Origin: an uncultured Clostridia bacterium
GTDB lineage: Bacteria; Bacillota; Clostridia; Christensenellales; Aristaeellaceae
DNA: 48,080 nt
NCBI GenBank assembly: GCA_945928315.1
Contig: CAMENN010000009.1
Span: 1 to 48,080 of the forward strand
Reading direction: 5' to 3'
Shown here: positions 28,994 to 43,785 of the stretch, piece after piece
Numbering within the stretch: position 1 is the first letter of the stretch
Layout of the letters: the number at the start of each line of letters is the position of its first letter
Program-made: the position numbers and the translations under genes
Notes under the pieces: model-generated
The model's input: the letters and a program-made list of their open reading frames with translations, nothing else
The model's database searches: none
Told to the model about the DNA's origin: nothing

Positions 28994-29809
28994 TTACAGC
29001 TTCTTCACCATGTTCTCGACCGCGGCGACCCAGGCGTGCTGCGGGTCGTTCACCCGGCAGAAGCCCTGATGCTGGCCCGCCATCAGCCACAGAAAGTAGG
29101 TGTTGTAGCCCGGCGCGCCGACCGTCGTGTGGTAGCCGTACGGGAACTCGACCAGCTCGTCGTTCTTCACGCGGTAGGCCTCGTCGATCTCGCCGTCCGC
29201 GGTGTAGAGGCACTGCACGCCGAAGCCCTGCTGCGGATCGAACAGGAAATAGTAGATCTCCTCGGCGACGCACTCGGAGGGCATGTTGTCCGTGTCGTGC
29301 TTGTGCGGCGGGAAGCCCGCCCAGTTGCCCGGCGTGATGTACGCCTCGCCGATGGTCAGCTTCTTCGCGTTCGTCGTGCCGTCCACGATGAAGCTCGTGT
29401 CGCGCTCCCAGGGCTTGACGCCCAGGCGCGTCACGCGCACGTCGGCCTGACGGATCGCCTGCGGCTCGGTGTCCACGTCGATGGGCGTCGCGCAGACGGC
29501 GATCTTGCAGTGGTGCACGCTGGCGATCTCCACCTTCGCGCCGCGCCCGGCGTAGAAGCACTCCGCCTTCGGGCTGGCAAACACGTTCGCGCGCACGCCG
29601 AGACGGCCGTAGTCCTTGCCGTTCGCCGTGAAGCCCGCGGTGCCCCAGAGCATGACGAACGCCGTCTCGCGGTCCTTCGTGTCATAGGTGAGCGTCTGGC
29701 CGGGGCGCAGCTCGATGATGCCGAACTCGAGGTCCTTGAGCGAGCACTCGCCGATTTTGCACAGCGGCGTATAGCCGTTGGCGGGGGTATACGTCTTTTT
29801 GAAGTTCAT
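28994..29809 (-). CDS. iolB: 5-deoxy-glucuronate isomerase-like protein (IolB family)
   Basis: 271 aa, the usual IolB length. The two-cupin family motifs are clear: WGTAGFTANGKDYG, ITPGNWAGFPPHKHD (metal-site H169 and H171), ECVAEEIYYFLFDPQQGFG (E184) and VEFPYGYH (H227). Known IolB converts 5-deoxy-D-glucuronate to 2-deoxy-5-keto-D-gluconate in inositol breakdown. The upstream inositol genes (iolG, iolE, iolD) are not in the window, although a PfkB kinase and class II aldolase, the types used by the next two inositol steps, lie at 40.6-42.3 kb. It is the last gene of operon B, 15 nt after the second etfA, with AGGAGG before the ATG. A related sugar-acid substrate is possible. Confidence 0.85.
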   Translation of the reverse strand: MNFKKTYTPANGYTPLCKIGECSLKDLEFGIIELRPGQTLTYDTKDRETAFVMLWGTAGFTANGKDYGRLGVRANVFASPKAECFYAGRGAKVEIASVHHCKIAVCATPIDVDTEPQAIRQADVRVTRLGVKPWERDTSFIVDGTTNAKKLTIGEAYITPGNWAGFPPHKHDTDNMPSECVAEEIYYFLFDPQQGFGVQCLYTADGEIDEAYRVKNDELVEFPYGYHTTVGAPGYNTYFLWLMAGQHQGFCRVNDPQHAWVAAVENMVKKL

Positions 29810-29824
29810 ACCGGTTTTCCTCCT

Positions 29825-30754
29825 TTATGCCTGTTCACTCAGCTCCGAAATCATGACGTCGATCGTCTCCTCCCAGTCCGCCGCCACACCGTAGTCCGCG
29901 CTGCGGAAGATGGGGGCAAGCCGGTCGCGATTGACGGCGATGACGGTCTTCGCGGCGCTCATGCCGACGGTGTGCTGAATCGCGCCGGACGCGCCGAAGA
30001 CGATGTAGAGCCTCGGGCGCACGGTGACGCCCGTCTGGCCGATCTGATGCGCATAGCCGATGTAGCCCGCGTCCACGGCGCTTCGCGTCGCGCCGACGGC
30101 GCCGCCCAGCAGCGCCGCGAGGCGGAACAGCTTGTCAAAGCCCTTGCGGCTGCCCACGCCCTTGCCGCCCGCGACGATGACCTGCGCGTCCTGCAGCGAG
30201 ACGGCGTTCTGTGCCGGGGTGAAGCCCTCGCGGGTCAGGTAATCGCGCAGCGGGCGCACGTCGAGCTTCTCTATGGGCGCCGCGGGCACGTTTCCTTCCG
30301 TCTCCGGCATCGGGAAGACGCCCGGGCGGACGCTGGCCATCTGCGGCCTGCGCTCGCGGCAGAGGATGTTGGCGGTCAGGTTGCCGCCGAACGCCGGGCG
30401 GCTTTGCAGCAGCAGGCCGTCCGGCGTCACGCCGAGCGCGGTGCAGTCGGCGGTCAGGCCCGTTTGGAGCCGCGCCGCGGCCCAACCGGAGAGAAACCGC
30501 CCCCGCACCGTCGCCGGAAAGAGCACACTGTCCGGGGCCAGCCTTGACAGCGCCGCCGCGACGGCGTCGCCCTGCGCGCAGTCGTCCGGGGCGAGCGGCA
30601 GCAGCGCCGCCCTGTCCGCGCCCGCCGCCAGGCACGCGCCGCACGCGGCCTCGTCCTCGCAAAGCGCGATGACCTCGGAGGAGAGCGTCCGCGCCTTCGC
30701 GATCAGCTCGAGCGCATGGCGGTGCCCCGCCTCGCAGTACACGACGGTGGTCAC
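29825..30754 (-). CDS. etfA: Electron transfer flavoprotein alpha subunit, second copy (no ferredoxin domain)
   Basis: 309 aa from GTG 30754, overlapping the etfB stop (GTGA) with GGGAGG just upstream. N-terminal adenine-nucleotide-fold region; SRPAFGGNLTANILC (118-132); FAD domain with GQTGVTVRPRLYIVFGASGAIQH (239-261) and AVNRD. ETF alpha/beta accept electrons from FAD dehydrogenases. Unlike the other EtfA (35649) it has no N-terminal iron-sulphur domain, so the two ETFs may differ in partner or in ability to bifurcate. Confidence 0.93.
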   Translation of the reverse strand: MTTVVYCEAGHRHALELIAKARTLSSEVIALCEDEAACGACLAAGADRAALLPLAPDDCAQGDAVAAALSRLAPDSVLFPATVRGRFLSGWAAARLQTGLTADCTALGVTPDGLLLQSRPAFGGNLTANILCRERRPQMASVRPGVFPMPETEGNVPAAPIEKLDVRPLRDYLTREGFTPAQNAVSLQDAQVIVAGGKGVGSRKGFDKLFRLAALLGGAVGATRSAVDAGYIGYAHQIGQTGVTVRPRLYIVFGASGAIQHTVGMSAAKTVIAVNRDRLAPIFRSADYGVAADWEETIDVMISELSEQA

Positions 30755-31524
30755 GGCTTCACCTCCCCCAGCAGCTGCGCGGCCGTCTCGGCCGCCTCCT
30801 GCGCGCTGAGCCACACGGTGTGGCGCACGCCGGCCGGCCGGGCGCTCACATGCGTGACGCGCGTGGGCGAGCCGCGAAGCCCGCAGTCCTCCCGCGAAAG
30901 CGCGATGTCCTCGTGCGTCAGATGCGTGACCGGCGCGTTTTTGGCCCTGCGCAGCCCGGAGAGCGTCGGCAGGCGCAGCGGATAGCTCCACTCGCACAGC
31001 GTCAGCGCCGCGGGCAGCTTCGCCCGCCAGCGGACCGTGCCCGCCTCCGTGAGCTGCGACGCCGTCAGCACGTCCCCCTCGATTTCGGCATCCGTCGCGT
31101 GGACGACGCACGGGATGCCCAGCAGCGCCGCAGTCATCGCGCCGACCTGGCCGGTCTCGCCGTCAGCCGCGCGCCGCCCGAAGAGCAGCAGATCAAACGG
31201 TCCCAACGCCTTTGCCGCGGCGCTGAGCGCGCGGGCGGTCGCCAGCGTGTCGGAGCCGGCACAGGCGGGGTCGCACAGCAGCGCCGCATGATCGACGCCG
31301 CGGGCGATCAGCTCGCGCAGCGTGCCCTCGGCGCGCGCCGGGCCCATGCTCAGCGCCGTCACCTCGCCGCCGTGCGCATCGCACAGGCGCAGCGCCAGCT
31401 CGACGGCGGACTCGTCCGCGGGATTGAGCACCTGCGCTACGAACTCGCGTTCGAGCGTCAGGTCGCTGCCCATGCGCACCTCGAGGGAGTCGGGCACCTG
31501 CTTGACCAGACACAGTGTCCTCAT
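30751..31524 (-). CDS. etfB: Electron transfer flavoprotein beta subunit, second copy
   Basis: 257 aa, the normal length. It starts MRTLCLVKQVPDSLEVRMG and has NPADESAVELALRL, ALSMGPARAEGTLRELIARG and LLLFGRRAADGETGQVGAMTA, the nucleotide-binding pattern of EtfB/FixA. It overlaps the FGGY kinase stop by 4 nt and the second etfA by 4 nt. No clear ribosome site is seen, so translation is probably coupled. It is about half diverged from the first EtfB, so this is not a recent duplication. Confidence 0.92.
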   Translation of the reverse strand: MRTLCLVKQVPDSLEVRMGSDLTLEREFVAQVLNPADESAVELALRLCDAHGGEVTALSMGPARAEGTLRELIARGVDHAALLCDPACAGSDTLATARALSAAAKALGPFDLLLFGRRAADGETGQVGAMTAALLGIPCVVHATDAEIEGDVLTASQLTEAGTVRWRAKLPAALTLCEWSYPLRLPTLSGLRRAKNAPVTHLTHEDIALSREDCGLRGSPTRVTHVSARPAGVRHTVWLSAQEAAETAAQLLGEVKP

Positions 31525-32987
31525 AGCTGATGATAGATGGGCGCGAGCGCCGCCTGAATCTGGCGGTAGAGCCCGAAGCCCCGTTCATAGTACGCCACGC
31601 CCTCCGGATCGGGCGCGATCTCGTCCTGAATGCGCACGCAGCGCGCCGCCGCATCCCGATGGTCCGCGAACACCCCGGCGGCTACGCCGGCAAGCATCGC
31701 GCTGCCCAGCGAGGAATCCACGTCAGAGACGGTGCGCAGCGGAATGCCGAGCATGTCGGCCATGATCTGCCGCCAGAGCGGGGCCTTCGCGCCGCCGCCG
31801 ATGAGCACGGCCTCGCGCGGGGCGATGCTCAGCCGCTTAAGCTCCTGGTAGCAGTCCTTCATCGAATAGGCGATGCCCTCCAGCACGGCGCGGTTGAAGT
31901 GCGCTTTCGTGTGGTGCCCCGTCGCGCCGACGAACGAGGCGCGCAGCCTGTCATCACGATACGGCGTGATCTCGCCTTGCAGATATGGGTGAAAGAACAA
32001 TCCGTCGCTGCCCCGCGCGACGCTCGCCGCGGCGCCGCTCATCTGCGCGTAGTCACCGCCGAACGTGTCACGGTACCAGCGGTTGCTCGCCGCGCAGGAC
32101 TTGGTCGCCGTGCCGGGATACCACAGCCCGTCGATGACGTGGCGGTAGGTCACCAGACACGGATCGACGACCGCGCGCTCGGTCACGGCGCAGATGCGCC
32201 CGGCCGTCGCCAGCTTGACGGTCGCCTGCCCCGGCGCAATCGCTCCGGCGGCGTAAACCTCCATGACCGTGTCGGTCGTGCCCGCGATGACGAGGGTGTC
32301 CCGGCGAAGGCCCGTCTCCCGCGCCGCCTCCTCGCGGAGGACAGAGAGGCGCTGCGTCGGCCGCACGAGCGGCGGCAGCCTGTCCGCCGCCACGCCCGCC
32401 AGCGCGCACAGCTCGTCGCTCCAGACGTTGCGGTTCGCATCGAGCAGCATGAAGCCCATGGCCTCGATGTCGTCGGTCACAAAGTCGCCGGTCAGGCGGT
32501 AGCGGATGTAGTCCTTGACCGCCATGATCTTTTTCGTGCGCGCGAGGGTTTCCGGCTCATGGCGGGAGAGCCAGAGCAGCTGCGGCAGCGTCCACAGGCT
32601 CGATACGCTGTTGAACGACAGCCGCGTGATCTCCTCCCCGCAGCGCGCGCGCAGCTCGTCGGCCTCGGCGCTGGCGCGGGTGTCCGTCCAGTAGATCGCG
32701 TTGCGCACGGGACGGTCCTGCGCGTCGAGCAGCACGGCCGTGTGCGTCGCCGCATCGAGCGCGACGGCAGCGATGTTCTCCGGCGCGGCGCCGCTTTTCT
32801 CAAGCAGCTCGCGCACATTGGAGACAAACGCGTTCCAGCTGTCCTCGGGATTCTGCTCCGCCCAGCCGCTCTGCGGGTAATAGGTCGGGTATTCGCACGT
32901 CGCCGTCGCGGCGACGCGGCCGTCCTCGCCCAGCAGCGTCGCTTTGGACGAGCTGCCGCCGAAGTCCACGCCCAGCAGGTACCTCAC
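31521..32987 (-). CDS. FGGY-family carbohydrate kinase (xylulokinase-like)
   Basis: 488 aa from GTG 32987 (GGGGGTGAT before it, overlapping the LarA-like stop). First FGGY motif YLLGVDFGGSSSKATLL; TYYPQSGWAEQNPEDSW is typical of xylulo/glucono/fuculokinases; catalytic aspartate in IYWTDTRA; VIAGTTDTVMEVYAAGA; ATP site VLIGGGAKAPLWRQIMADML. It phosphorylates a ketose, polyol or sugar acid. Position between the racemase-like gene and an ETF pair is unusual for this family. Substrate not predictable; fuculokinase- or gluconokinase-like roles are both plausible. Confidence 0.88.
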   Translation of the reverse strand: MRYLLGVDFGGSSSKATLLGEDGRVAATATCEYPTYYPQSGWAEQNPEDSWNAFVSNVRELLEKSGAAPENIAAVALDAATHTAVLLDAQDRPVRNAIYWTDTRASAEADELRARCGEEITRLSFNSVSSLWTLPQLLWLSRHEPETLARTKKIMAVKDYIRYRLTGDFVTDDIEAMGFMLLDANRNVWSDELCALAGVAADRLPPLVRPTQRLSVLREEAARETGLRRDTLVIAGTTDTVMEVYAAGAIAPGQATVKLATAGRICAVTERAVVDPCLVTYRHVIDGLWYPGTATKSCAASNRWYRDTFGGDYAQMSGAAASVARGSDGLFFHPYLQGEITPYRDDRLRASFVGATGHHTKAHFNRAVLEGIAYSMKDCYQELKRLSIAPREAVLIGGGAKAPLWRQIMADMLGIPLRTVSDVDSSLGSAMLAGVAAGVFADHRDAAARCVRIQDEIAPDPEGVAYYERGFGLYRQIQAALAPIYHQL

Positions 32988-34252
32988 ACGATCACCCCCA
33001 CGCCGTCCGGAATCACCGTCACCGTCGAAGCCTCGCCCAGCAGCGCCGTGGCCTGCGCGAGCGCGCTGTCCACATCCGCCGCCCAGCGAAAATGCATGCT
33101 CTCCACGAGCGCCCGGTTTTCCTCGCCCGTGACCATGAAGCAGGTCGCCCTGCCCATCACGCGGGCCAGAATCTGCGCCTCCCACTGGTCCATGTGCGTG
33201 CGCTCCGGGGGCACGCTCTCGATGTCGCGCGCGACGGACGCCGCGTCCGGACGATCGGCGAACCAGCGGTAGAACGCCTCGCCGCCGTGCCCGTCGCCCA
33301 GCGCCGCACACATGATGATCGCGCCGCCCTCGCGCACGCAGGCCTCCGCCGCCGTCATGCCCTTCACGGACTGATAGACGTTCTGATCGAGCGGATAGCC
33401 GCCGTTGGAGGTGATCGCGATGTCGGAGACGACCGGCGTCACGCGGGTCATCTCCGCGCTCAGGCGGCAGCCCTCGCGGTGCGCCAGCTCGCGATCGCCC
33501 GCCACCGCGGCGACCACGCGCTTGTCCCCGTCGAGAATCACGTTGAGGATGAACGCCAGCTTCGCCTGCTGCGCCGCGTAGAGCATGTCCTGGTGAATCG
33601 GGTTGTCCGTCAATTCGCCCTGACGCGCATGCGGGTCGGCGATGAAGCGCGCGTTGTGGTTGTAGAGCACGGTTTTGCGCGAAGCCACGCCCGGCAGAAT
33701 GCTCTTGCGCCCGCCGGAAAAGCCCGCAAAGAAGTGCGGCTCGATGAAGCCCTCGGAGAGCACCAGGTCGCTCTCCTTCACCAGACGGTTGAGCCAGAGC
33801 TCGCCGCCGGAGGGCAGCGTGCCGAAGAAGGCCATGTCCTCGTCCGCCTGCGCGCGGTGCACGACGATGCGCTCATGGGCGACGATCTCCCCGCCGAAGC
33901 GGTCGAGCAGCTCCGCCTGCGTCGTCGGCCGGTGCATGCCCGTGGCGATGAGGATGGTGATCTCGGCCTGCGGGTTGCCCGCGCGCACCTGCGCAAGCAA
34001 CTGCGGCATCGTGATGCGGCTGGGCACGGGGCGCGTGTGGTCGCTGGTGATGATCAGCACGCGCCGCTTCCCCTTCGCCAGCTCACAAAGCGCCGGCGAG
34101 CCGATGGGCGATGCCAGCGCGCAGCGGACGATCTCCTCCTGCGCCTCCCCGGAGGGGGCGGTGTGGCGCGGCGCAAGCACCGCGTTCAGCCGCCCCTGCG
34201 GGATATGCGCAATCTGCTTTCCCCGGCCAAAGGGAATCTCGATCGCGTGCAT
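32984..34252 (-). CDS. LarA-family nickel-dependent 2-hydroxyacid racemase/epimerase
   Basis: 422 aa, the length of LarA. The catalytic and nickel-pincer residues known in Lactiplantibacillus LarA (R75, H108, H174, K184, H200) are all present at a constant offset of one: R74 (SDHTRPVPS), H107 (TGMHRPTT), H173 and K183 (EPHFFAGFSGGRKSI), H199 (LYNHN). Family members racemise lactate; others act on malate, aromatic hydroxyacids or epimerise gluconate. In Acetobacterium a LarA homologue (lctF) lies in the lactate-oxidation operon. Here it follows the FAD dehydrogenase by 2 nt, suggesting it supplies the correct stereoisomer. The pincer cofactor genes larB, larC and larE are not in the window. 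Confidence 0.92.
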   Translation of the reverse strand: MHAIEIPFGRGKQIAHIPQGRLNAVLAPRHTAPSGEAQEEIVRCALASPIGSPALCELAKGKRRVLIITSDHTRPVPSRITMPQLLAQVRAGNPQAEITILIATGMHRPTTQAELLDRFGGEIVAHERIVVHRAQADEDMAFFGTLPSGGELWLNRLVKESDLVLSEGFIEPHFFAGFSGGRKSILPGVASRKTVLYNHNARFIADPHARQGELTDNPIHQDMLYAAQQAKLAFILNVILDGDKRVVAAVAGDRELAHREGCRLSAEMTRVTPVVSDIAITSNGGYPLDQNVYQSVKGMTAAEACVREGGAIIMCAALGDGHGGEAFYRWFADRPDAASVARDIESVPPERTHMDQWEAQILARVMGRATCFMVTGEENRALVESMHFRWAADVDSALAQATALLGEASTVTVIPDGVGVIV

Positions 34253-34254
34253 GT

Positions 34255-35652
34255 TTACACCACCTTGCCCGGGTTGAGGATGCCGTTGGGGTCAAACGCC
34301 GCCTTGATGCCGCGCATGAGCTCCACCTGCGTCTCGCCCACGCTCTCCTGAAGGAACGCGCGCTTGGCGTGGCCGATGCCGTGCTCGCCGCTGACCTCGC
34401 CGTCCATCCGGCGGGCCGCCGCGTAGAGCTCGTCCATGACCTGATGGACGCCGCGCTTCCAGTCCGCCTCGGACAGCTCGTCGCGGCAGGCGTAGATGTG
34501 CAGGTTGCCGTCGCCTGCATGGCCGAACGAACACACGCGCACGCCGGCGCGCTTGCCGATTTCGACGCTCTCGCGCACGAACGCCGCGATGTGATCGCGC
34601 GGCACGACGACGTCGCACTCGTCCATCGTGGGCGTGCTGCCCTTGATGGCCTCCAGGAACGCGCCGCGCGCATTCCAGATGCTCTCCTTGCGCTCGTCCG
34701 TATCGGCCAGCAGCACGTCCTTGGCGCCGATGGACAGCGCCAGGTCGGTCAGCGTGTTCATCGCGGGGGTGAGCGCCTCGCGGCTGGGGCCGTCCAGGCG
34801 CACGAGCAGATAGGCGTCCGCGCTGGTATCCGGGAACTGCTTGCCCAGGTACTTCTCCGCGCAGGCGATGACCTCGCGCTCCATGAACTCCACGGCCGTG
34901 GGCTCGCAGCCGCAGGCCAGCACCTGCGGCACCGCCTCGATGCAGGCCTGCAAGTCGTCAAACGGCATGAGCAGCGAGAGGTTGACCTTCGGCTCCGGCA
35001 CGAGCTTGACGGTGAGCTTGGTCAGGAAGCCCAGCGTGCCCTCGGAGCCGATCATCAGGTCGATGAGGCTGTAGCCGCTCGAGGTCTTGACGGTCTTGCC
35101 GCCCAGCGTGATGAGCCGGCCGTCGGCCAGCGCGACCTCCATGCCCAGCACATAGTCGCGCGTGACGCCGTAGCGCACGGCGCGCATGCCGCCGGCGTTG
35201 GTCATGGCGTTGCCGCCCATCGTCGCGGTCTTCTCGCCCGGGTCAGGCGGGTAGAACAGCCCCGTGCCCTCCAGCGACTTGGGAAACTCCATCAGCAGCA
35301 CGCCCGGCTCCACGGTCGCGGTCATGTTGCGGGTATCCACCTCCAGCACGCGCTTCATGCGCTCGGTGGAGAGCACCACGCCGCCGTGAATGGCGACGCA
35401 GCCGCCGCAAAGGCCGGTGCCCGCGCCGCGCGGGGTGACGGCGATCTTCTTCTCGTTGCAGTAGCGCAGCACGTCGCAGATCTCCTGCGCGCTCTGCGCC
35501 TGCACGACGGCCTCGGGCATGAAGTGCCCGTATTCGGTCATCTCGTCATGGTCATAGTCGGCGGAAATGTCCGCGCCGGAGAACACGCGGCCCGGTGCGA
35601 CGCCCTCCAGGAACGCCAGGTCCGCCGCGTCCACATGCTTGTATGCGCTCAT
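34255..35652 (-). CDS. FAD-binding 2-hydroxyacid dehydrogenase (GlcD/LctD type)
   Basis: 465 aa. FAD_binding_4 region with VTPRGAGTGLCGGCVAIHGG (72-91), then TATMGGNAMTNAGGMRAVRY and IGSEGTLGFLTKLTVKL. The C-terminal oxidase domain ends GEVSGEHGIGHAKR and FDPNGILNPGKV. It oxidises a 2-hydroxyacid (D-lactate or glycolate in known members) to the 2-oxoacid. It overlaps the ferredoxin-EtfA stop by 4 nt. Order EtfB, EtfA, dehydrogenase, LarA matches the lctBCD...F cluster of Acetobacterium, where ETF and dehydrogenase form an electron-confurcating lactate dehydrogenase. Confidence 0.92.
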   Translation of the reverse strand: MSAYKHVDAADLAFLEGVAPGRVFSGADISADYDHDEMTEYGHFMPEAVVQAQSAQEICDVLRYCNEKKIAVTPRGAGTGLCGGCVAIHGGVVLSTERMKRVLEVDTRNMTATVEPGVLLMEFPKSLEGTGLFYPPDPGEKTATMGGNAMTNAGGMRAVRYGVTRDYVLGMEVALADGRLITLGGKTVKTSSGYSLIDLMIGSEGTLGFLTKLTVKLVPEPKVNLSLLMPFDDLQACIEAVPQVLACGCEPTAVEFMEREVIACAEKYLGKQFPDTSADAYLLVRLDGPSREALTPAMNTLTDLALSIGAKDVLLADTDERKESIWNARGAFLEAIKGSTPTMDECDVVVPRDHIAAFVRESVEIGKRAGVRVCSFGHAGDGNLHIYACRDELSEADWKRGVHQVMDELYAAARRMDGEVSGEHGIGHAKRAFLQESVGETQVELMRGIKAAFDPNGILNPGKVV

Positions 35653-36839
35653 GTCCTCGCCTCCTTCAGCTGCGCGATCAGCTCCGGCACCACGCGGTAG
35701 AGATCGTCCACGATGGCGATGTGCGCCGTGCCGAAGATGGGCGCGTCCGGATCGTTGTTGATTGAAACGATGTGGTCGCTGCCGTTCATGCAGCTGGTGA
35801 ACTGGATGGCGCCGCTGACACCGCAGGTGATGATCAGCTTCGGGCGCACCGTGCGGCCGGAGAGGCCGATCTGACGCTCATTGGTCGCCCAGCCTTTCTC
35901 CACCAGCGGACGGGTGACGGCCCAGTCGCCGCCCAGCAGACCCGCCAGCTCGCGGATCATGTCCATATCGCTCTCGCGCTGCAGACCGCGTCCGCCGACG
36001 ACCAGCACCTCCGCGTCGGAGATGCTCGCCTTGGGCGGCACCGGCTGCACGCTCACGCAGCTGGCCTTGGAGGCCGCCACGCCCTTGGGGATCGCGCGCA
36101 CGACGATCTTGCCGCTTTCCTGCTCGCTGCGCACGGGCGTATCCATCACCTTGTAGCGCACGGTCGCAAACTGCGGACGCGTGTGCGTGGTGACGATCTG
36201 CGCCATGATGTTGCCGCCGAACGCCGGGCGGATCTGCACCAGGTCGCTGCTCTCGCGCAGCTCCAGCCTCGTGCAGTCCGCGGTGAGGCCCGTGTGGAAG
36301 CGCGTCGCCAGCCGCGGGGCGAGGCTGCGCCCCAGCGAGGTCGCGCCCACGAGCACCACGCTCGGATGCGCGAAGCGGATGTAGTCCTCCACGCAGGCGG
36401 CATAGGCGTCCGCGCGGAAGTAGGAGAGCGCCGGGTCGTCATAGACCGCGGCCTCGCTCACGCCGTAATGCAGCAGCTCGTCCGCGTAGGCGCGCACGCC
36501 TTCGCCGACCAGCACGGCCTTGACCGTATAGCCGGGCACGGCCTTTGCCAGCTCCTGCGCCTTGCCGATGAGCTCCAGCCCGACCGGATGCAGCCGGCCG
36601 CCGCTGACCTCCGCGAAGACGAGGATGTCCTTCCACTTCGACTTGTCCACGCTGGTGACCTTCGTCTCCAGCTTGAGGATGGCCTTCTGCGGGCAGTTCT
36701 TCACGCAGATGCCGCAGACCTTGCAGCCCGCGGTCAGCTCCGGCTTGCCATCCTTCATCTCGATGCCCCCGAAGGGACAGTTCGCAACGCAAAGGCCGCA
36801 GCCCGTGCACTTGCGCTCAAGGATTGCTATCTGTGCCAT
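35649..36839 (-). CDS. etfA: Electron transfer flavoprotein alpha subunit with N-terminal ferredoxin domain
   Basis: 396 aa from ATG 36839 (GGAGG 8 nt upstream). Residues 1-60 hold two 4Fe-4S motifs: C11-x2-C14-x2-C17-x3-C21-P and C39-x2-C42-x2-C45-x3-C49-P. The EtfA domain follows, with RPAFGGNIMAQIV and the FAD motif IGLSGRTVRPKLIITCGVSG plus AIQF. Such ferredoxin-EtfA fusions occur in LctC and CarE, subunits of bifurcating complexes that link NADH, ferredoxin and an organic substrate. It lies between etfB (13 nt) and the dehydrogenase (overlap). Confidence 0.94.
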   Translation of the reverse strand: MAQIAILERKCTGCGLCVANCPFGGIEMKDGKPELTAGCKVCGICVKNCPQKAILKLETKVTSVDKSKWKDILVFAEVSGGRLHPVGLELIGKAQELAKAVPGYTVKAVLVGEGVRAYADELLHYGVSEAAVYDDPALSYFRADAYAACVEDYIRFAHPSVVLVGATSLGRSLAPRLATRFHTGLTADCTRLELRESSDLVQIRPAFGGNIMAQIVTTHTRPQFATVRYKVMDTPVRSEQESGKIVVRAIPKGVAASKASCVSVQPVPPKASISDAEVLVVGGRGLQRESDMDMIRELAGLLGGDWAVTRPLVEKGWATNERQIGLSGRTVRPKLIITCGVSGAIQFTSCMNGSDHIVSINNDPDAPIFGTAHIAIVDDLYRVVPELIAQLKEART

Positions 36840-36852: not shown

Positions 36853-37632
36853 TTACACGAATTTCCACTTCTTGAGCTGATCGCACAGCTTCGCGGCGCA
36901 GCCCTCGCCGCTCCACTGCTCATGCACCGTGTCGCTGACCGGCGGGAAGATGCGCTCCACCTGCGTGGCGCTGCCCGTCAGGCCGTAGTGCGTCTCATCG
37001 GTGTCGAGGAAGCTGTCCAGCCCCTGGATGTGAATCGGCTTGTCGCCGATCTCCTTCGCCGTCTTGAGCGAGGGCAGGCGCGGCATGCAGATGTCCTGCT
37101 CCACCGTCACCAGGCAGGGGAAGGGCATGTGCACCGTCTCGATGACGTCCTGCAGCTGCTGCTCCGCGTCCACGCCGTCCCCGGAGACGGTCAGTTTGCT
37201 CACCCACGCCGCGTGCGGGATGCCCAGATACTCGGCAATCGCCGGGCCGACCTGCGCGGTATCGCCGTCGGTGGTCTGCTTGCCGCAGAGGATCAGGTCA
37301 AAGTCGCCCACGCTCTGGATGGCCTGGGAGAGGGTATAGCTGGTCGCCAGCACGTCCGCGCCGCCCAGCCGCCTGTCCGAGAAGACATAGCCCTCGTCCG
37401 CGCCCATCATGTAGGCCTCGCGCACCACCGCCTGTGCCTGCGGCGGGCCCATCGTGCCCACCGTCACCTTGCCGCCATGCGCCTCGCGCAGCCGCAGCGC
37501 GGTCTCCAGGGCGTACAGGTCATAGGGATTCATCTTGCTGACCACGCCGTCCCGCTTGAGGACGCCGGTCGCTTCATCCACCTGCACCTTGTTCGTCCCG
37601 GGCACCTGCTTGATGCACACGAAGATGTTCAT
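36853..37632 (-). CDS. etfB: Electron transfer flavoprotein beta subunit, first copy
   Basis: 259 aa, first gene of operon B, with AAAGGAG before the ATG. It starts MNIFVCIKQVPGTNKVQVDE; has NPYDLYALETALRLRE, GTMGPPQAQAVVREAYMMGA and LILCGKQTTDGDTAQVGPAI for nucleotide binding, and a C-terminal segment IFPPVSDTVHEQWSGE. Probable partner of ferredoxin-EtfA and the GlcD-type dehydrogenase. No convincing promoter was recognised in the 352-bp gap upstream, which carries a 3'-flanking repeat. Confidence 0.94.
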   Translation of the reverse strand: MNIFVCIKQVPGTNKVQVDEATGVLKRDGVVSKMNPYDLYALETALRLREAHGGKVTVGTMGPPQAQAVVREAYMMGADEGYVFSDRRLGGADVLATSYTLSQAIQSVGDFDLILCGKQTTDGDTAQVGPAIAEYLGIPHAAWVSKLTVSGDGVDAEQQLQDVIETVHMPFPCLVTVEQDICMPRLPSLKTAKEIGDKPIHIQGLDSFLDTDETHYGLTGSATQVERIFPPVSDTVHEQWSGEGCAAKLCDQLKKWKFV

Positions 37633-37912: not shown

Positions 37913-37984
37913 ATGGCCCGCTGTTTTCCGGGTAGGCCGCGTGAGCAAAACGGCGGCGCAGAAGCCCGCGCCGCCGTCCATGGT

Positions 37985-39109
37985 TTACAGTCTTTCGCTC
38001 AGCATCACGAACAGATCGCGGGTCTCACAGCCTTCCGGCACGCTCAGGCGCAGCGCCTCGGCCGCCTGCGGGTCCGCGGAGACGAGGATGCGCGAGTCGG
38101 TGCGCAGCAGGTCGGTATAGCGGTTTTCGCACAGGCCCTTCGCCAGATCGGGGCGCATCTGCCCCATGATCGAGGAGCCGCACTCCCGCGCGCGCACGAA
38201 CGAGCCGCACGCCTTGTTGGCGGGGTTCTTGTTGTCCTTCTCGTTGAGGTAGAGCTCGTGCAGCTGCGCACCCATCGCGGCGAGGATCGCGCGCGGAGCG
38301 TCCGTCTCGCCCAGATCGCGGGCCAGGCGCGCCGCGTCGTGATAGCTGACGACCTCATCGACCTTGCGCGGCACGATGCGGCCGCTGTCGATCAGCTCCG
38401 CGACGAACGCCGTCGCCGTCACGACCTCCGGCAACTCGATGCCCCAGTCCTTGCACTCATGCAGGAAGAACGCGCAGTCGTGGCTGTCCAGCACGACGAC
38501 CTTCTTCGCGCCCGCAGCGGCGATGGCCTGCGCGGCCCGCTTGGCCTGCGCGCGCACGTCCTCGACGTGGCCGATCATGTCGCCCAGCTCGCAGCCGGAG
38601 GCCGGTTCATCCGGGAGCACGGCGAAGGCCACGCCCGCCTTTTTGAGGATGGAAAGCAGCGCCTGCGCCACGTCCGGCACGGCGTAACGGGCGGCGTTGC
38701 CCAGCCAGACGAGCGTCTCGCCCGCCTGCGGCACGCCGGTCAGATCGACCTTCGCCTGCGTCGCGCCGTAGGGGTTGCCCGTGGCCTCCAGGCGGTCGAT
38801 GACCTTCTTGGCGAAGTCCGGCACGAGGTCCTCGAGCACGGCCTGCGTGCGGCCCTCGCGGATGAACACGAGCGGGTCAAAGCCCGTCACGCAGTCCGCG
38901 GTGCACGCGCCGCACAGCAGGCATTCGTACATCGTCACGGCGCAGCCCCTGTCCATCTTCATGCCGCGCTCGAGCATGGACACCTGCAATCCCTTGGCGC
39001 GGGGGGTGTTGTTCTCCTTGCCGGTCACCAGCTCCACCGGGCACAGGTGACGGCACATGTAGCAGAAGCGGCACGCGTCCGCGTTCTTTTTGGCTTTTTC
39101 GCTGAACAT
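37985..39109 (-). CDS. 4Fe-4S electron-transfer protein (GlcF/GlpC/HdrD-like)
   Basis: 374 aa. Two N-terminal ferredoxin motifs: C13-x2-C16-x2-C19-x3-C23-P and C63-x2-C66-x2-C69-x3-C73. The rest resembles the two cysteine-rich (CCG) domains of GlpC/HdrD proteins, but both are degenerate: VLDSHDCAFFLHECKDWG and ACGSFVRARECGSSIMGQM replace the normal CCG-x-GG. It probably relays electrons from the FAD dehydrogenase encoded 16 nt upstream. The missing CCG cysteines argue against a heterodisulfide-type cluster. Confidence 0.82.
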   Translation of the reverse strand: MFSEKAKKNADACRFCYMCRHLCPVELVTGKENNTPRAKGLQVSMLERGMKMDRGCAVTMYECLLCGACTADCVTGFDPLVFIREGRTQAVLEDLVPDFAKKVIDRLEATGNPYGATQAKVDLTGVPQAGETLVWLGNAARYAVPDVAQALLSILKKAGVAFAVLPDEPASGCELGDMIGHVEDVRAQAKRAAQAIAAAGAKKVVVLDSHDCAFFLHECKDWGIELPEVVTATAFVAELIDSGRIVPRKVDEVVSYHDAARLARDLGETDAPRAILAAMGAQLHELYLNEKDNKNPANKACGSFVRARECGSSIMGQMRPDLAKGLCENRYTDLLRTDSRILVSADPQAAEALRLSVPEGCETRDLFVMLSERL

Positions 39110-39125
39110 GATGGTTGCCTCCTCG

Positions 39126-40559
39126 TCACAGTCCCAGCTTGTAGGGGTTCATGATGCCGTTGGGATCGAGCTGCTTCTTGAGCGCCTCCATCACCTGCAT
39201 CGCGGGGCCGTACTGCTCCTTCATCAGGCGGGAGAGCTTGAGGCCGATACCGTGGTGATCGTTGATGACGCCGCCGTTCTCCATCGCGGCGCGCACGCCC
39301 ACGTTCCAGATGCGGTTGTGCAGGCGGCGGGCCTCCTCCGGGTCCTGCGGCACGTCCTTGGGCTCGACGATGAAGCGCGTGTAATTCATGCAGCCCCACT
39401 CATACCAGTGACTGGAATGGGAGATGTAGCGCACAAACGGGAACTCCTCCTTGACGGCCTTCTTCATCGCCAGGTAGATCTTCTCGATGTTGGCGTAGGT
39501 GGCCACGGTGTCCATCGTGCCGAACATCTGCGGGATATCCATGATGTGACCCGGATAGAAGAAGGTGATGCGGTTCTCGAACCACTTCTCGCCATAATCG
39601 CTGCCCAGATCCTGGCCGCCCCACTTTTTGACGCACTCGAGGATGATCTCCATCTCGATATCGACGATCTTTTTGAAGCCCTCCACGGCGAGGTTCATGA
39701 AGCAGCCGGGCTGCTCGAAGCCGAGGATCTTCTTGATGATCGAGCTGCTCTCCGCCTCGTCGTAGAAGCGCAGGATGGAGGGCTTGACCTTCTGCATGAT
39801 GTCGCGCCCGGCCATGTAGCCCGAGTGCATATCCGGGAAGAGGAACGCGCGGAACTGGCGGTCCTCAGGCTGCTCATAGAGCTTGAAGGTCGCCTTGGTG
39901 ATGACGCCCAGCGTGCCCTCGGAGCCGATGAAGATCTGGTTGAGATCCGGGCCAGCCGCGTGCTTGGGCACGGGCAGCGTATTGATGATGTCGCCGTTGG
40001 GCAGCACGACCTCCATGGAGATGCACTGATCGTCGATCTTGCCGTACTTGGTGGACATGATGCCGATGCCCCGGTGCCCGAGCGCGCCGCCGATGGTGCC
40101 GCAGGTCAGGCAGGAGGGGATGTGCTGGCAGGAGTAGCCCTTCTCGTTGGCATACCACTCGAGCTGCTGGAAGATCATGCCAGCCTCGGCGGTGATGGTG
40201 CGGCTGACCTCGTCGATCTCGATGAGGTGGTTCATGCGCTTCATGTCCATCAGGATGCCGCCGGTCATGGGCAGCGCGCCACCCTGCGAGCCGGAGCCGC
40301 CGCCCCAGATGTGGACGGGAATCTTGTAGTAGTTGGCGATTTTGAGGACCTTCGAAACCTCCTGCGCGCTGCCGGGGCGGACGATCCAGTCCGGCATCGG
40401 CGGCACCTGGCCGCGGTCCTCCCACATGCGACCGACCCAGAAGTAATCGACGCCATAGGTGGCGCGGTCGCTGTTTTCGATGGAGACGTTGTCATATCCG
40501 CCAACGGCATCCGCGAGCTCGTCGAGGATCATGCCGGGCATAAAGGCTTTGAGTTCCAT
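39126..40559 (-). CDS. FAD-binding oxidoreductase (GlcD-like, VAO family)
   Basis: 477 aa. PDWIVRPGSAQEVSKVLKIA and IPVHIWGGGSGSQGGALPMT form the FAD_binding_4 pyrophosphate site; GTIGGALGHRGIGIMSTKYG and IGSEGTLGVITKATFKL follow; the C-terminal oxidase domain ends NDHHGIGLKLSRLM and LDPNGIMNPYKLGL. It is not a close copy of the dehydrogenase at 34255 and looks nearer to alkyl-DHAP-synthase/vanillyl-oxidase-like members. The substrate is probably a hydroxyacid or sugar acid from operon A. Pairing with an Fe-S protein resembles GlcDF. Confidence 0.85.
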   Translation of the reverse strand: MELKAFMPGMILDELADAVGGYDNVSIENSDRATYGVDYFWVGRMWEDRGQVPPMPDWIVRPGSAQEVSKVLKIANYYKIPVHIWGGGSGSQGGALPMTGGILMDMKRMNHLIEIDEVSRTITAEAGMIFQQLEWYANEKGYSCQHIPSCLTCGTIGGALGHRGIGIMSTKYGKIDDQCISMEVVLPNGDIINTLPVPKHAAGPDLNQIFIGSEGTLGVITKATFKLYEQPEDRQFRAFLFPDMHSGYMAGRDIMQKVKPSILRFYDEAESSSIIKKILGFEQPGCFMNLAVEGFKKIVDIEMEIILECVKKWGGQDLGSDYGEKWFENRITFFYPGHIMDIPQMFGTMDTVATYANIEKIYLAMKKAVKEEFPFVRYISHSSHWYEWGCMNYTRFIVEPKDVPQDPEEARRLHNRIWNVGVRAAMENGGVINDHHGIGLKLSRLMKEQYGPAMQVMEALKKQLDPNGIMNPYKLGL

Positions 40560-40588
40560 ACTATCGCTCCTTCATCATTGTCCCTTGG

Positions 40589-41506
40589 TCACAGCGTTTC
40601 GCCCCGCGCGGCGAGGAACGCACGGCACTCCGCGTCGTCCGGCATCGCCCGGCGCGCGCCCAGCCGCATGCACTTGATGGCGGCGGCGGCGCTGGCATAG
40701 CGGCAGGCGCTGTCCACGTCCATCCCCTTGAGCATGCCGGCGACAAACGCCCCATGGAACGTGTCGCCGCAGCCGTTGGAGTCGGCGACCTCCACCCTGT
40801 AGCAGCCGTAGCCGCGCAGGCCCTGCGCGTCGAGGATGATGCCGCCGCGGCTGCCCTGCGTCACGACGATCAGCTCCGGGTGATACGCCGCCATCAGCGC
40901 GCGCGCCGCGGAGGGCGCGTCGGCCTCGCCCGTGATCTTGAGGGCGAACTCCTCGGAGGGAATCAGCCAGCTGACGTGCGGCAGCAGGCGCTCGATGTTC
41001 GGATAGACACCGCCCGCGTCGTGGCAGACCGGCACGCCCGCCGCCCGGCACAGCTTCGCGGCGTGCACCGCCGCATCGAGCATGTGCCCGTCCAGATGCA
41101 GGGCGCGCGCGTGCGTCAGCGTTTCCACGTCCAGCTCCTCCGGGCGGGGCGGCTGCACCGTGCCGGGGTTCCAGATACAGGTGCGGCTGCCGCTTTGCTG
41201 GTTGAGCAGCACGGTCGAGTGGAAGGACACTGCGTCCTCCTCCACGCGCACATGCGACGTGTCCACGCCGAAGCGGGCGAAGTCCTCGAGCATGTAGCGG
41301 CCGAAGCCGTCCCCGCCGATGGTGCCCATGTACGCGGCGGACAGGCCCAGCCTTGCCGCGGCGACCAGCGCCGTCGCGCAGGGACCGCCGCCCTGAATGC
41401 GCGTCTCGATGCCGCGCTGCTTGGTGTCCTCCTGCGGGAAATGATCGACGACCATCAGCGTGTCATAGACCGTGGAGCCGATGCCCACGACGTCAAACTC
41501 AGGCAT
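40589..41506 (-). CDS. PfkB/ribokinase-family sugar kinase (YihV-like)
   Basis: 305 aa from ATG 41506 with GGAGGGGAG upstream. The N-terminal PfkB signature region reads ETRIQGGGPCATALVAAARLG (34-54); the C-terminal catalytic motif is DSNGCGDTFHGAF (242-254) with base D248, a cysteine replacing the usual alanine of GAGD. The C-terminus ASAAAAIKCMRLGARRAMPD resembles YihV, the sulfofructose kinase, and other ketose kinases. It overlaps the aldolase gene by 8 nt, so kinase and aldolase probably act in succession, as in tagatose, inositol or sulfosugar pathways. Confidence 0.88.
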   Translation of the reverse strand: MPEFDVVGIGSTVYDTLMVVDHFPQEDTKQRGIETRIQGGGPCATALVAAARLGLSAAYMGTIGGDGFGRYMLEDFARFGVDTSHVRVEEDAVSFHSTVLLNQQSGSRTCIWNPGTVQPPRPEELDVETLTHARALHLDGHMLDAAVHAAKLCRAAGVPVCHDAGGVYPNIERLLPHVSWLIPSEEFALKITGEADAPSAARALMAAYHPELIVVTQGSRGGIILDAQGLRGYGCYRVEVADSNGCGDTFHGAFVAGMLKGMDVDSACRYASAAAAIKCMRLGARRAMPDDAECRAFLAARGETL

Positions 41507-42332
41507 GATTGCTCCCCTCCGCGCCCAGCAGCGCGATCTTCTCGAGCGCAAAGCGCTTGACCGCCTGCACCGGCTCCTTCATGTAGGTATCCACGCCGAT
41601 GATCGAGGGATCGACCTTGCGCACCGCGTCCAGGAACGACACGCACACATCGGTGCCGAAGTTCACCTTGCGGATGCCCGCCGCGACGGCCGCGCGGATC
41701 TGATCGTCCGGCACGCCGCTGCCGCCGTGGAGCACCAGCGCCGCGGGGATGGCCGCATGCAGCTCGCGGATACGGTCGATGGCGAGCACGGGGGCCTGCT
41801 TGTAGTGACCGTGCGCGGTGCCGACGGCGACCGCCAGCGCATCGACGCCGGTCTTTTCGCAGAAGCGCAGCGCCTCATCGACCTGCGTGTAATCGGTCGG
41901 CACGCCGTCCTTGGCGAAGCCGATGTGGCCCAGCTCGCCCTCCACGCTGATGCCCAGGTCGTGTGCGAAGTGCACGACGCGCTCGAGCACCGCGGCGTTC
42001 TCCTCGAACGGGAACGCGCTGGCGTCGCGCATGACGCTCGTGCAGCCCCAGCGGATGGCGCGGGCGACAGCCTCGTCGCAGCTGCCGTGATCGAGGTGGA
42101 AGCAGATCTTCGCCTTCGAGCGGTGCGCCGCATCGACGATGGACGGGGCGATGAACTCCGCCTCCTCGCTCATGAACAGGCGGCTGTACATCTGCACGAT
42201 GATGCAGGCGTCGGCCTCCTCGGCGGCCTTGAAGATGGCGAGGGCCGTCTCGCCGTTGTAGACGTTGAACGCGGGAATGGCACAGCCCCTGCGTTCGGCC
42301 ACGGCCAGCAGTTCCTTCATGTTGACGAGCAT
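41499..42332 (-). CDS. Class II (zinc) fructose-bisphosphate-type aldolase (GatY/KbaY/IolJ-like)
   Basis: 277 aa. AAAGGAG precedes the ATG. Catalytic and zinc residues are visible: D81 and H82 (FHLDHGS), E133 (VEGELG), H174 (VGTAHGHYK), H202 (LHGGSGVPD) and the phosphate-loop NFGTD. It splits a ketose phosphate into DHAP and an aldehyde. Members with this look act on tagatose-bisphosphate, fructose-bisphosphate or 5-keto-2-deoxygluconate-6-phosphate; the second product is not predictable here. It lies between the isomerase and PfkB kinase genes. Confidence 0.9.
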   Translation of the reverse strand: MLVNMKELLAVAERRGCAIPAFNVYNGETALAIFKAAEEADACIIVQMYSRLFMSEEAEFIAPSIVDAAHRSKAKICFHLDHGSCDEAVARAIRWGCTSVMRDASAFPFEENAAVLERVVHFAHDLGISVEGELGHIGFAKDGVPTDYTQVDEALRFCEKTGVDALAVAVGTAHGHYKQAPVLAIDRIRELHAAIPAALVLHGGSGVPDDQIRAAVAAGIRKVNFGTDVCVSFLDAVRKVDPSIIGVDTYMKEPVQAVKRFALEKIALLGAEGSNHA

Positions 42333-42393
42333 GGGATGGTTCTCCTTTCAGTGTGACGGGCGTTTCATTGCCGGTCCCCGTTGTTTTGCGGGA

Positions 42394-43785
42394 TTACTCC
42401 ACCGTATCGGACGTGAGCTCCGGCACGTACTTGATGAACTCGCGCAGCGTGGCCGTCACGTCGCCCTCGACCTCGGCCATGTGGTGAATGTACGGGCCCT
42501 CGACGAGCTTGCGCTCCCAGGCGTCGAGGTGGTTGAACTTCGCCCACAGATATGTGCCGAAGGTGTACGGGCCGTCCATCGTCTCGCAGACGCCGTTGAG
42601 CAGTGAATACCTGCCGCCGTCCTGATCAAAGCGCGCGACCGTGTAGGTGCCGTCCTTGACCTGGAACCACTGGCGCATGTTCACGTTCTTGCAGGGCACG
42701 CCCTCCTTCTTGAGGCTGTAGGCGAACGGGCCGCAGTGCCAGAGCAGCTGGCCGTTCGGGTCGTCCGGATGGCGGACGGTGAACTCGCCGAAGAACGGCA
42801 CCTTCTTGCCCATCGTCGCGCAGGAGAGCAGCGCCATGGTGATCGCGCCGTGCAGGTCGCTCTCGCAGGAGATGACGTAGCCCATGTCCGCCAGCACGCT
42901 GTAGGCCGTGCAGGGCATCGCGCCCACGCCCAGCTGCATGGCCGTCCAGCACTCCGCAGAGACCGCCTGCACGTTGTACGTCTCAAACACCCACTGGTAG
43001 AGCAGCACGAAGGCATAGACCTTCTTGAGCAGCGGCGGGGTGAGGTCGTCCATCTCATAGCGGGAGAGCAGCAGCTTCGCGCCTTCGGTAAGCTCCGCGT
43101 CGCGCTCCGCCAGAATTTTGTTGTACTTGTCGATGATCACCGCGAGGTTGACCGGCACGATCTGCAGGCCGAACTTCTCCATCAGCTCGCCCTCGTTGAA
43201 GATGACCGAGCAGAAGGGCTTCGGCCGCATGCCGACCTGCGCGATGCGCATGCCGCGGAAGTTCTTGACCATGCAGGCCACGGCGGCGAAGCGCTCAAAG
43301 CCCTCGGCGAACGCCGCGTCCTCCACGCGGCAGGTCTTGATGAACGTGAACGGGATGTGGAAGCGCTGCATCTGGCGGCTCACGCCGAAGATGCCGCACT
43401 GGCTGTCGGTGTAGCGCATGCCGTCCGGCTCGAACACGTCGTCGAGCGGCGCCCAGATGCACACCGGCTTGCCCAGCGCGCGGGCGACCTGCGCCGCGAT
43501 CTCCTCGTTGCCGAAGTTGCAGTTGATGATGAGCACCGCGTCGACCTTCTCCGCCGAGAAGCGCTCGATGACCTTCTCCGCGTCCGCGTCGCAGTACATG
43601 ACGTCCACGGGGTTGATCCCCTCAAGGTCCACGAAGGAGACGTTCTCGGAGGCGAAATGCTCCTTGATGTAGGCGACGATGCGGTGGCCGCGCTCCTCCG
43701 CCTTCTCCCAGTTGAAGATGCCCGGGCGCGGCGTGACGTCGCGGCGCATGGGCGCCAGACCGATTTTGACATGGTAGTTCAGCAT
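42394..43785 (-). CDS. L-fucose/L-arabinose isomerase-family protein
   Basis: 463 aa from ATG 43785 with AAAGGAG upstream; the frame is open further but crosses the promoter. The two-lobed FucI/AraA fold is suggested by VDAVLIINCNFGNEEIAAQV, GKPVCIWAPLDD, VKNFRGMRIAQVGMRPKPF and the C-terminal motif AVSAECWTAMQLG...CTAYSVLADMGYVISCESDL. Known members interconvert aldoses and ketoses with Mn2+; this divergent one may use another sugar. It is the first gene of operon A, driven by a consensus promoter and facing the RpiR regulator. Confidence 0.85.
   Translation of the reverse strand: MLNYHVKIGLAPMRRDVTPRPGIFNWEKAEERGHRIVAYIKEHFASENVSFVDLEGINPVDVMYCDADAEKVIERFSAEKVDAVLIINCNFGNEEIAAQVARALGKPVCIWAPLDDVFEPDGMRYTDSQCGIFGVSRQMQRFHIPFTFIKTCRVEDAAFAEGFERFAAVACMVKNFRGMRIAQVGMRPKPFCSVIFNEGELMEKFGLQIVPVNLAVIIDKYNKILAERDAELTEGAKLLLSRYEMDDLTPPLLKKVYAFVLLYQWVFETYNVQAVSAECWTAMQLGVGAMPCTAYSVLADMGYVISCESDLHGAITMALLSCATMGKKVPFFGEFTVRHPDDPNGQLLWHCGPFAYSLKKEGVPCKNVNMRQWFQVKDGTYTVARFDQDGGRYSLLNGVCETMDGPYTFGTYLWAKFNHLDAWERKLVEGPYIHHMAEVEGDVTATLREFIKYVPELTSDTVE

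Follow-up and report, generated by a model that had tools for sequence, protein, structure and literature searches.

L-Fucose and L-rhamnose operons use the aldolases FucA and RhaD, and the core of the Acetobacterium lactate operon is etfB-etfA-ldh-larA. Sulfoquinovose, a C6 sulfonate, is handled by cleavage of the Embden–Meyerhof–Parnas (EMP), transketolase and transaldolase types, according to one review (PMC9594981). Here we analyse a window of 48,080 bases, one whole contig (CAMENN010000009.1; G000:C9) from an uncultured Clostridia bacterium, in which a minus-strand gene cassette at 28994..43785 resembles each of these systems in part. Labels of the form G### denote genomes and L### the gene neighbourhoods (loci) compared; G000 is the window's own genome, a 2.94 Mb draft that is 93% complete.

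The two units of this cassette, A and B, are one catabolic system. A sequence-only reading of the window had taken the combination to be undescribed, and indeed no account of the cassette was recognised in the literature searched. Our favoured, though tentative, interpretation is an undescribed EMP-type pathway for a hexose blocked at C6, the likeliest candidate being a 6-deoxyhexose that would yield dihydroxyacetone phosphate (DHAP) and lactaldehyde; we infer the substrate, every reaction and the electron flow from the families and neighbours of the genes.

Results

Gene content of units A and B

Every gene named by the sequence-only reading is a minus-strand open frame in which internal stops are absent, and the proposed gene content and placement are borne out by family matches. 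Unit A is transcribed from 43785 to 37985. Its first gene encodes a 463-residue aldose isomerase of a clade resembling the FucI/AraA superfamily (42394..43785), whose best NCBIfam match, the sulfoquinovose isomerase SftI, reaches 122 bits where the cut-off is 700. There follow a class II ketose-(bis)phosphate aldolase (41499..42332; Pfam F_bP_aldolase, 276 bits), a PfkB-family ketose kinase (40589..41506; Pfam PfkB), a VAO-type flavin adenine dinucleotide (FAD) enzyme with AGPS-like motifs, here FADdh2 (39126..40559; Pfam FAD_binding_4), and a GlpC/GlcF-like 4Fe-4S protein, here the Fe-S protein (37985..39109; Fer4 domains; GlpC-like at 42 bits against a cut-off of 278).

Unit B, separated from unit A by a gap of 352 bp, is transcribed from 37632 to 28994. 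It opens with an electron-transfer flavoprotein (ETF) subunit, EtfB1, assigned to an Lct-type lactate dehydrogenase complex by Pfam ETF and its neighbours (36853..37632), EtfA1 with two N-terminal 4Fe-4S motifs of the form CxxCxxCxxxCP (35649..36839), an LctD/GlcD-type D-lactate dehydrogenase expected to use nicotinamide adenine dinucleotide (NAD+) and ferredoxin (34255..35652), and a homologue of the lactate racemase LarA (32984..34252). The remaining genes encode a xylulokinase-like FGGY carbohydrate kinase (31521..32987; XylB model, 375.6 bits against a cut-off of 380.25), EtfB2 (30751..31524; Pfam ETF), EtfA2 (29825..30754; Pfam ETF_alpha), in which the ferredoxin domain and the CxxCxxCxxxC motif are absent, and an IolB/KduI-family isomerase (28994..29809; TIGR04378, 207.9 bits against a cut-off of 205). 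Overlaps of a few bases are common among neighbouring genes.

Units A and B recur as one cassette

A scan that took a single genome from each species returned 478 relatives of the isomerase, and the best 80 of these 478 were examined as loci. Presence was counted anywhere in a locus by tblastn with window and neighbour proteins; naive calling of open reading frames (ORFs) misses genes in GC-rich loci. At least 9.5 kb of downstream sequence is available in 47 of the 80, and some loci are the same contig twice or near-copies, such as L034/L023 and L091/L114. A core cassette of isomerase, class II aldolase, PfkB kinase, FADdh2, Fe-S protein, IolB-like protein, FGGY kinase and EtfBA2 recurs in many relatives: all eight other cassette genes accompany the isomerase in 31 of the 47 longer loci, FADdh2 and the Fe-S protein in 37, and the aldolase and kinase in 41. 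Hungatella hathewayi WAL-18680 (L052) is among the carriers of a cassette. In G020, a genome of the same genus, they form a single operon in the order iso-aldII-pfkB-FADdh2-FeS-FGGY-EtfB2-EtfA2-iolB-larA, from which the lct triple (EtfB1, ferredoxin-EtfA1 and the LctD-type dehydrogenase) is absent.

The same picture emerges when the search starts from FADdh2, which matched 29 of 391 evenly drawn genomes of the same class, 27 of them at at least 56% identity; the count of 27, about 7% of the sampled genomes, leaves out G301 and G422 (32–35%). Twenty of the 29 matching genomes were fetched, and a near-kin set of 17 loci was formed by setting aside L126 (a 5.4 kb contig) and the distant L127 and L128. 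The Fe-S protein, IolB and FGGY kinase are present in all 17, the aldolase and kinase in 16, and the isomerase lies within reach in 11. EtfBA was found in 14, the other three loci ending short on that side. In the sole near-kin locus without aldolase and kinase, isomerase, aldolase and kinase make up an operon of their own in that genome, and G155 shows a clean split into FADdh2-FeS-iolB-DUF4867-FGGY-Etf and iso-aldII-pfkB. Among the six near-kin loci with no isomerase in reach, the gene stands elsewhere in G083, G155, G226 and G401, and was not found in G213 and G237. Overall, an isomerase ortholog (at least 550 bits) occurs in 21 of the 26 genomes with FADdh2 besides the window's own.

A co-occurrence check of the kind that the sequence-only reading had advised gave a clear association across the class: among the 391 genomes, the isomerase is present in 47 (E ≤ 1e-120), FADdh2 in 27 and both in 22, where 3.2 would be expected (Fisher p 1.6e-18, with kinship ignored and the window's own genome counted in). 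The two genes lie at most 5 kb apart in 15 of these 22. Our comparisons thus demonstrate the gene families, their conserved grouping and their association at the genome level. Since the grouping recurs in many relatives and isomerase and FADdh2 co-occur across the class, it is not due to chance.

The same neighbourhoods bear on whether a plain lactate operon could simply have come to lie beside unrelated sugar genes. Unit B does open with the lct triple and LarA, as such an operon would, but among relatives whose loci are long enough, most retain unit A together with FGGY, EtfBA2 and IolB without the lct genes. We therefore reject chance neighbourhood, which we regard as very improbable; the outcome that would have undone the sequence-only reading, in which A and B never occur together or B is a plain lactate operon with FGGY and IolB genes there by chance, is contradicted by the relatives.

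A proposed pathway

The sequence of isomerase, kinase and DHAP-forming aldolase that the sequence-only reading had proposed fits these genes. An aldose would be converted to a ketose by the FucI/AraA-like isomerase, the ketose would presumably be phosphorylated at C1 by the PfkB kinase, and the class II aldolase would cleave the ketose phosphate to DHAP and a C3 aldehyde. A hexose unable to take a phosphate at C6 is the probable substrate, and a 6-deoxyhexose giving lactaldehyde is the likeliest single choice. The C3 half could then be oxidised by the flavoprotein/Fe-S pair, with electrons passing to EtfBA2, and a 2-hydroxyacid is a plausible form of the C3 unit. In the window's genus, LarA might equilibrate lactate, and the LctBCD-type dehydrogenase might oxidise it to pyruvate with electron confurcation between ferredoxin and NAD. 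IolB and the FGGY kinase may form a second isomerase/kinase pair, acting on the same sugar, the C3 product or a companion sugar.

We suggest a block at C6 because the isomerase clade pairs with EMP, transketolase and transaldolase modules, as in sulfoglycolysis. A 6-deoxyhexose giving lactaldehyde is favoured because of the substrate positions of the kinase, the pairing with transketolase and transaldolase, and the presence of LctBCD and LarA.

The isomerase has a weak link to FucI and AraA

In a quick, midpoint-rooted tree made without bootstrap, the isomerase clade comprises 98 rows with an SH-aLRT value of 95. By their record titles, the named relatives come mostly from genomes of ruminant and other animal guts. 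Residues E308, H350 and H435 are invariant in 34 sequences and line up with E306, H350 and H450 of AraA, which we take to be its ligand residues, although that profile alignment is weak (E 0.0086, probability 4.7%); the corresponding comparison with FucI is weaker still. The description of this protein as 'FucI-like' therefore stands in part: a weak family link to FucI/AraA is suggested by sequence, while the protein lies far below the SftI cut-off, does not reach Pfam Fucose_iso_C (PF02952; E 0.068, 13.3 bits against a cut-off of 29.3), and gives a match at chance level only when compared with the PDB by sequence.

Kinase and aldolase in relation to sulfoquinovose

The best PDB match of the PfkB kinase is the sulfofructose kinase 7ag6 (124.5 bits; the next is a ribokinase at 103), and the aldolase scores highest against 8q58 (181 bits) and 8q57 (173), followed by YdjI (171) and AgaY (157); 8q58 and 8q57 are class II sulfofructose-phosphate aldolases. 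Together with SftI being the best named family of the isomerase, this raises the question of whether the cassette is a variant of sulfo-EMP, with sulfolactaldehyde as its C3 product. The grouping of EMP, transketolase and transaldolase modules in the isomerase clade also speaks for such a pathway, as does DUF4867, which occurs in 25 of 80 isomerase loci. This domain is known from sulfoglycolysis clusters, as stated in PMC9594981, but it is not diagnostic, for the family lies mostly in non-sulfo aldose/ketose clusters according to PMC11968277. DUF4867 was not found in the window's own genome, in a scan whose control matched nowhere either.

The kinase positions tell against a sulfonate. Among 72 cassette kinases, the column of YihV N109 holds phenylalanine in 45, tryptophan in 22 and other residues in five, and that of R138 holds asparagine in 52, histidine in 19 and valine in one, whereas K27 is kept in 71. 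The window's kinase has tryptophan and histidine in the N109 and R138 columns, and seven sampled relatives have W/F and H/N. We take N109 and R138 to be sulfonate contacts in YihV; the aromatic residues and N/H found in their place fit a small neutral group at C6. Also, the top YihQ score across 27 genomes was 165 bits, with an identity of 31% (short fragments reached 36%), in a search of the YihQ family without a clostridial positive control, and a sulfolactaldehyde reductase was not seen among the window genes scanned. With the isomerase far under the SftI cut-off as well, a sulfoquinovose pathway is unlikely, and on sequence grounds sulfoquinovose itself is unlikely to be the substrate.

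Modules are exchanged around the isomerase

Within the isomerase clade the downstream module is swapped, the FAD cassette being the one found in most members. Transketolase is paired with the isomerase in L077 and L079, and in L135 the isomerase stands with a fructose-6-phosphate-aldolase-like protein of transaldolase type (236 bits against a cut-off of 246). In two nests of the tree (L053, L133 and kin), a variant operon has, in place of the FAD module, an aldehyde dehydrogenase (ALDH) and proteins resembling glycerate kinase and enolase; its full content is Ldh2, a 2-keto-3-deoxy-6-phosphogluconate (KDPG) aldolase, an aldo-keto reductase, the glycerate-kinase-like, enolase-like and ALDH proteins, another PfkB, the isomerase and the aldolase, in some cases with a short-chain dehydrogenase/reductase. 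The enolase-like proteins (L053:6243-7541, L133:5151-6449, L070:16906-18213) have SDSRGEG where SHRSGET is expected, with other positions changed too, and the L053 protein, at 299.6 bits, falls just short of its cut-off of 300. Because this motif is lost and other positions are altered, their substrate is perhaps not 2-phosphoglycerate, and they may be enolase-family enzymes with a new substrate.

The variant operon is pertinent to a further candidate, an unsubstituted hexose whose stereochemistry is unusual, such as an L-hexose, which would give DHAP and glyceraldehyde, with IolB and the FGGY kinase making DHAP from the latter. The glycerate-kinase-like and enolase-like genes would suit glyceraldehyde, as would an FGGY homologue located close to the transaldolase-type gene of L135. 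The altered enolase motif, by which the protein may not act on 2-phosphoglycerate, counts against it, and LctBCD and LarA would be left unexplained, so we consider such a hexose a rather unlikely substrate.

NagA/NagB-like genes are found in 10 loci of the cassette clade, including the cassettes of G213 and G237, in which the isomerase ortholog was not found. One NagA-like representative is above cut-off, and the NagB-like proteins match weakly (70 bits against 237); such genes would fit a further entry point, by which a 2-acetamido analogue of the sugar is used.

Other genes accompany individual members of the clade. The transketolase variant is adjoined by rhaM and by genes for a glycyl radical enzyme resembling diol dehydratase and for its activase (L077:5306-8886, L079:1533-5104), rhaM being present in three loci. 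In the PDB this glycyl radical enzyme scores 213 bits with diol dehydratase versus 163 with isethionate lyase, and it reaches 231 bits with the NCBIfam model HpsG (sulfopropanediol dehydratase), far under the cut-off of 1000; by these scores, a role as a C-S lyase is no more than possible. ThuA-like and Gfo/Idh-type genes, a pairing familiar from 3-keto-glycoside systems, stand beside the isomerase in eight loci (L040, L043, L045, L049, L050, L068, L070 and L074).

The lactate genes are an add-on

The unit B dehydrogenase matches A. woodii LctD (7qh2_C) at 553 bits, with the next best match at 267, and carries the motifs HAGDGNLH and SGEHGIG. This LctD ortholog is accompanied by EtfB and ferredoxin-EtfA, as is an Acetobacterium-type lactate dehydrogenase. 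LarA passes the curated model NF033504 for nickel-dependent lactate racemase (584 bits against a cut-off of 460) and matches the LarA structure 2yjg at 458 bits. The dehydrogenase and LarA scores therefore point to lactate, and on the identity of these enzymes the sequence-only reading was right.

The neighbourhoods show, however, that the lactate module does not belong to the core. Among 138 loci scanned with window proteins, the dehydrogenase gene glcD1 occurs in four (L036, L037, L046 and L047), L045 having just etfB1 at its edge, and larA in five (L044, L046, L047, L049 and L050). All loci with glcD1, etfB1 or larA have an isomerase at least 73% identical to the window's. The position of larA differs among the carrying loci; it was therefore recruited more than once or has moved. 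The core consists of unit A with FGGY, EtfBA2 and IolB, to which close kin of the window have added the lactate part.

The FAD enzyme and its partner

Among distant carriers, FADdh2 is the most conserved cassette protein, with a mean column identity of 81% and 178 invariant columns in 23 sequences. Its motifs, WYEWGC and DHHGIG, differ from the active-site motifs of GlcD/LctD-type enzymes, and in the PDB it is best matched by alkyl-DHAP synthase (AGPS; 158 bits, versus 118–128 for lactate dehydrogenases), whose motifs include HHG. The Fe-S protein adjoins FADdh2 in all 17 near-kin loci chosen by FADdh2 and is presumed to be its electron partner.

The AGPS-like scores and motifs are the basis of a different proposal, in which the cassette strips a substituent Y from C6 of the hexose after aldol cleavage. 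IolB would turn Y-CH2-CHOH-CHO into the ketone, phosphorylation by the FGGY kinase would give Y-CH2-CO-CH2-OP, an analogue of alkyl-DHAP, and the AGPS-like flavoenzyme with the Fe-S protein and ETF would take off Y. In the variant operon, oxidation, 2-phosphorylation and an enolase-like elimination would lead to phosphoenolpyruvate and Y. O-methyl, sulfate and sulfonate are candidates for Y. We hold such a reaction to be quite unlikely; if true, gut anaerobes would possess a sugar pathway of a new type, one that removes an ether or ester group.

Two distant loci (L127:2527-12691 and L128:5138-12617) have an AGPS-like FAD enzyme of 32–35% identity beside glycerol-kinase-like and flavoprotein genes, named by eye; L127 additionally has genes that we judged by eye to be of corrinoid/UroD type. 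These gene sets possibly serve glycerol-ether metabolism.

Uronate and inositol as substrates

IolB belongs to the 5-deoxyglucuronate isomerase family, and a kinase that is KdgK-like by eye lies with a KDPG-aldolase-like gene near the cassettes of L115 and L123. Both would suit a hexuronate pathway that proceeds by cleavage of a ketose-1-phosphate. The window's aldolase also has an arginine (in MRDAS) like that of YdjI, which looked promising for a uronate, but this arginine is found in 13 of 87 aldolase hits, with 15 unplaceable by pattern; we dropped this argument since the residue is not conserved family-wide. Nor does the cassette stand in for a missing UxaC of the Ashwell pathway: UxaC was matched in 19 of 21 cassette genomes. 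A hexuronate pathway is accordingly distinctly improbable.

Late myo-inositol breakdown by IolB, IolC and IolJ, with the early enzymes encoded elsewhere, would suit the narrow pass of IolB on TIGR04378. In the 21 of 28 cassette genomes covered by the iolD scan, however, iolD was over cut-off in none, with sub-threshold matches of at most 242 bits in 14 and the control found in 3 of 14, and the kinase scores better as a ribokinase or YihV than as IolC. We reject an inositol pathway as extremely improbable, and with it the inositol-like side of the sequence-only reading. L-Rhamnose was likewise discarded as a substrate, RhaA being already present in 17 of the 21 cassette genomes.

Neighbouring genes and regulators

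Divergent from the isomerase gene lies an RpiR-family regulator gene (43971..44870, plus strand), whose product is 35% identical over 270 residues to another RpiR encoded at 19842-20741; a minus-strand frame at 43968-44891 is a false ORF, with the RpiR gene occupying the opposite strand. An rpiR homologue is found in 20 of the 80 isomerase loci. Also on the plus strand are an ABC sugar importer (23850..27018; Pfam SBP_bac_1 and BPD_transp_1), comprising a binding protein (23850-25154), provisional permease frames (25222-26143) and a permease (26143-27018), a response regulator with an AraC-type domain (21722..23626; Pfam Response_reg and HTH_18), a sensor histidine kinase (27055..28938; Pfam His_kinase, HATPase_c and HAMP) and an aldose 1-epimerase (20738..21676; Pfam Aldose_epim, 100 bits). 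A homologue of the importer's binding protein occurs in 10 of the 80 isomerase loci, response regulator and sensor kinase are linked to the cassettes of some kin, and several cassettes enclose another aldose epimerase.

Elsewhere in the window, the minus strand at 5483-19483 encodes ABC importer genes, a DUF6259 protein, a ROK protein and a GH42-like protein just below cut-off. A dispersed element of 55 nt with the core GCTTCGCGC is present in six copies, at 1013, 8578, 11551, 13854, 37875 and 44916, of which the copy at 37875 lies inside the gap between units A and B and that at 44916 just past the RpiR gene. A 161-nt unit is repeated in tandem at 4121-4497, where two complete copies are accompanied by the beginning of another.

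Discussion

Several of our findings weigh against an EMP-type pathway for a 6-deoxyhexose. The first enzyme is far below the cut-off of its best NCBIfam model and does not reach Fucose_iso_C, as given above. FADdh2 is absent from 10 of the 47 longer isomerase loci, five of which are without all eight other genes, and the isomerase ortholog was not found in 5 of the 27 genomes with FADdh2, one of them 99% complete. Transketolase also lies beside wider isomerases of 30–40% identity (L139, L140, L147, L149, L155 and L160), and this wider pairing must be set against the proposed C6 block, which comes by analogy. The variant operon points to a C3 acid of the glycerate rather than the lactate type, and an obvious lactaldehyde dehydrogenase was not seen in the cassette. 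LarA may lack its nickel-pincer cofactor, as recognisable synthesis genes were not found: LarC (PF01969) is missing from the 93% complete draft G000 (control 6 of 14), and TIGR00268, presumably the LarE model, was over cut-off in none of five draft genomes of the same genus, with weaker matches of up to 48 bits. RhaA is present in 17 of the 21 cassette genomes, the exceptions being G000, G020, G087 and G255, and UxaC in 19, although the match in G000 is a fragment of 37 positions where a contig ends; these organisms therefore usually have other routes for common 6-deoxy and uronic sugars.

IolB and the FGGY kinase also fit no assigned role. Relative to the window's, IolB is of two types, at 60–83% and 35–42% identity, with one further protein at 52%, which may reflect gene replacement within an otherwise constant operon. 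In L083 the FGGY homologue passes the XylB model at 393 bits, and IolB reaches 215 bits on TIGR04378.

If the cassette does serve a C6-blocked hexose, the principle of sulfoglycolysis, with its EMP, transketolase and transaldolase routes, would be extended to another sugar, and AGPS-like flavoproteins and IolB-like isomerases would gain new catabolic roles. The cassette enzymes are few and belong to soluble families, so that the question of the substrate is directly testable.

Among described systems, sulfo-EMP2 and sulfo-EMP (SqvD/SqiK/SqiA and YihS/YihV/YihT) share with the cassette an isomerase nearest to SftI, a ketose kinase and a class II aldolase whose expected products are DHAP and a C3 aldehyde; cassette loci often have DUF4867, and transketolase and transaldolase variants exist in both. 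Unlike these pathways, the cassette has an isomerase far below the SftI cut-off, the presumed sulfonate contacts are changed, a close YihQ was not found, and FAD, Fe-S and ETF proteins, IolB and an FGGY kinase are added; its kinase is of PfkB type, whereas SqiK of sulfo-EMP2 is of PfkA type. EtfB, ferredoxin-EtfA, LctD and lactate racemase are shared with the A. woodii lactate operon, but in the window the set is embedded in a sugar cassette, recurs in few close relatives and comes without detectable LarC or LarE. As in iolB-iolC-iolJ of inositol breakdown, there is an IolB-family protein, a PfkB kinase and a class II aldolase, while iolD over cut-off is lacking from all 21 cassette genomes and the kinase is not closest to IolC. 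The logic of an isomerase with an FGGY kinase, and possibly lactaldehyde, recalls L-fucose and L-rhamnose operons, from which the cassette differs by its extra PfkB kinase and ETF system, by an isomerase that matches FucI weakly, and by an aldolase of the class II FBA type in place of FucA or RhaD. Finally, FADdh2 shares with the AGPS family its FAD domain, the HHG motif and its best PDB score, but unlike AGPS it is encoded in a sugar operon alongside an Fe-S protein and ETF.

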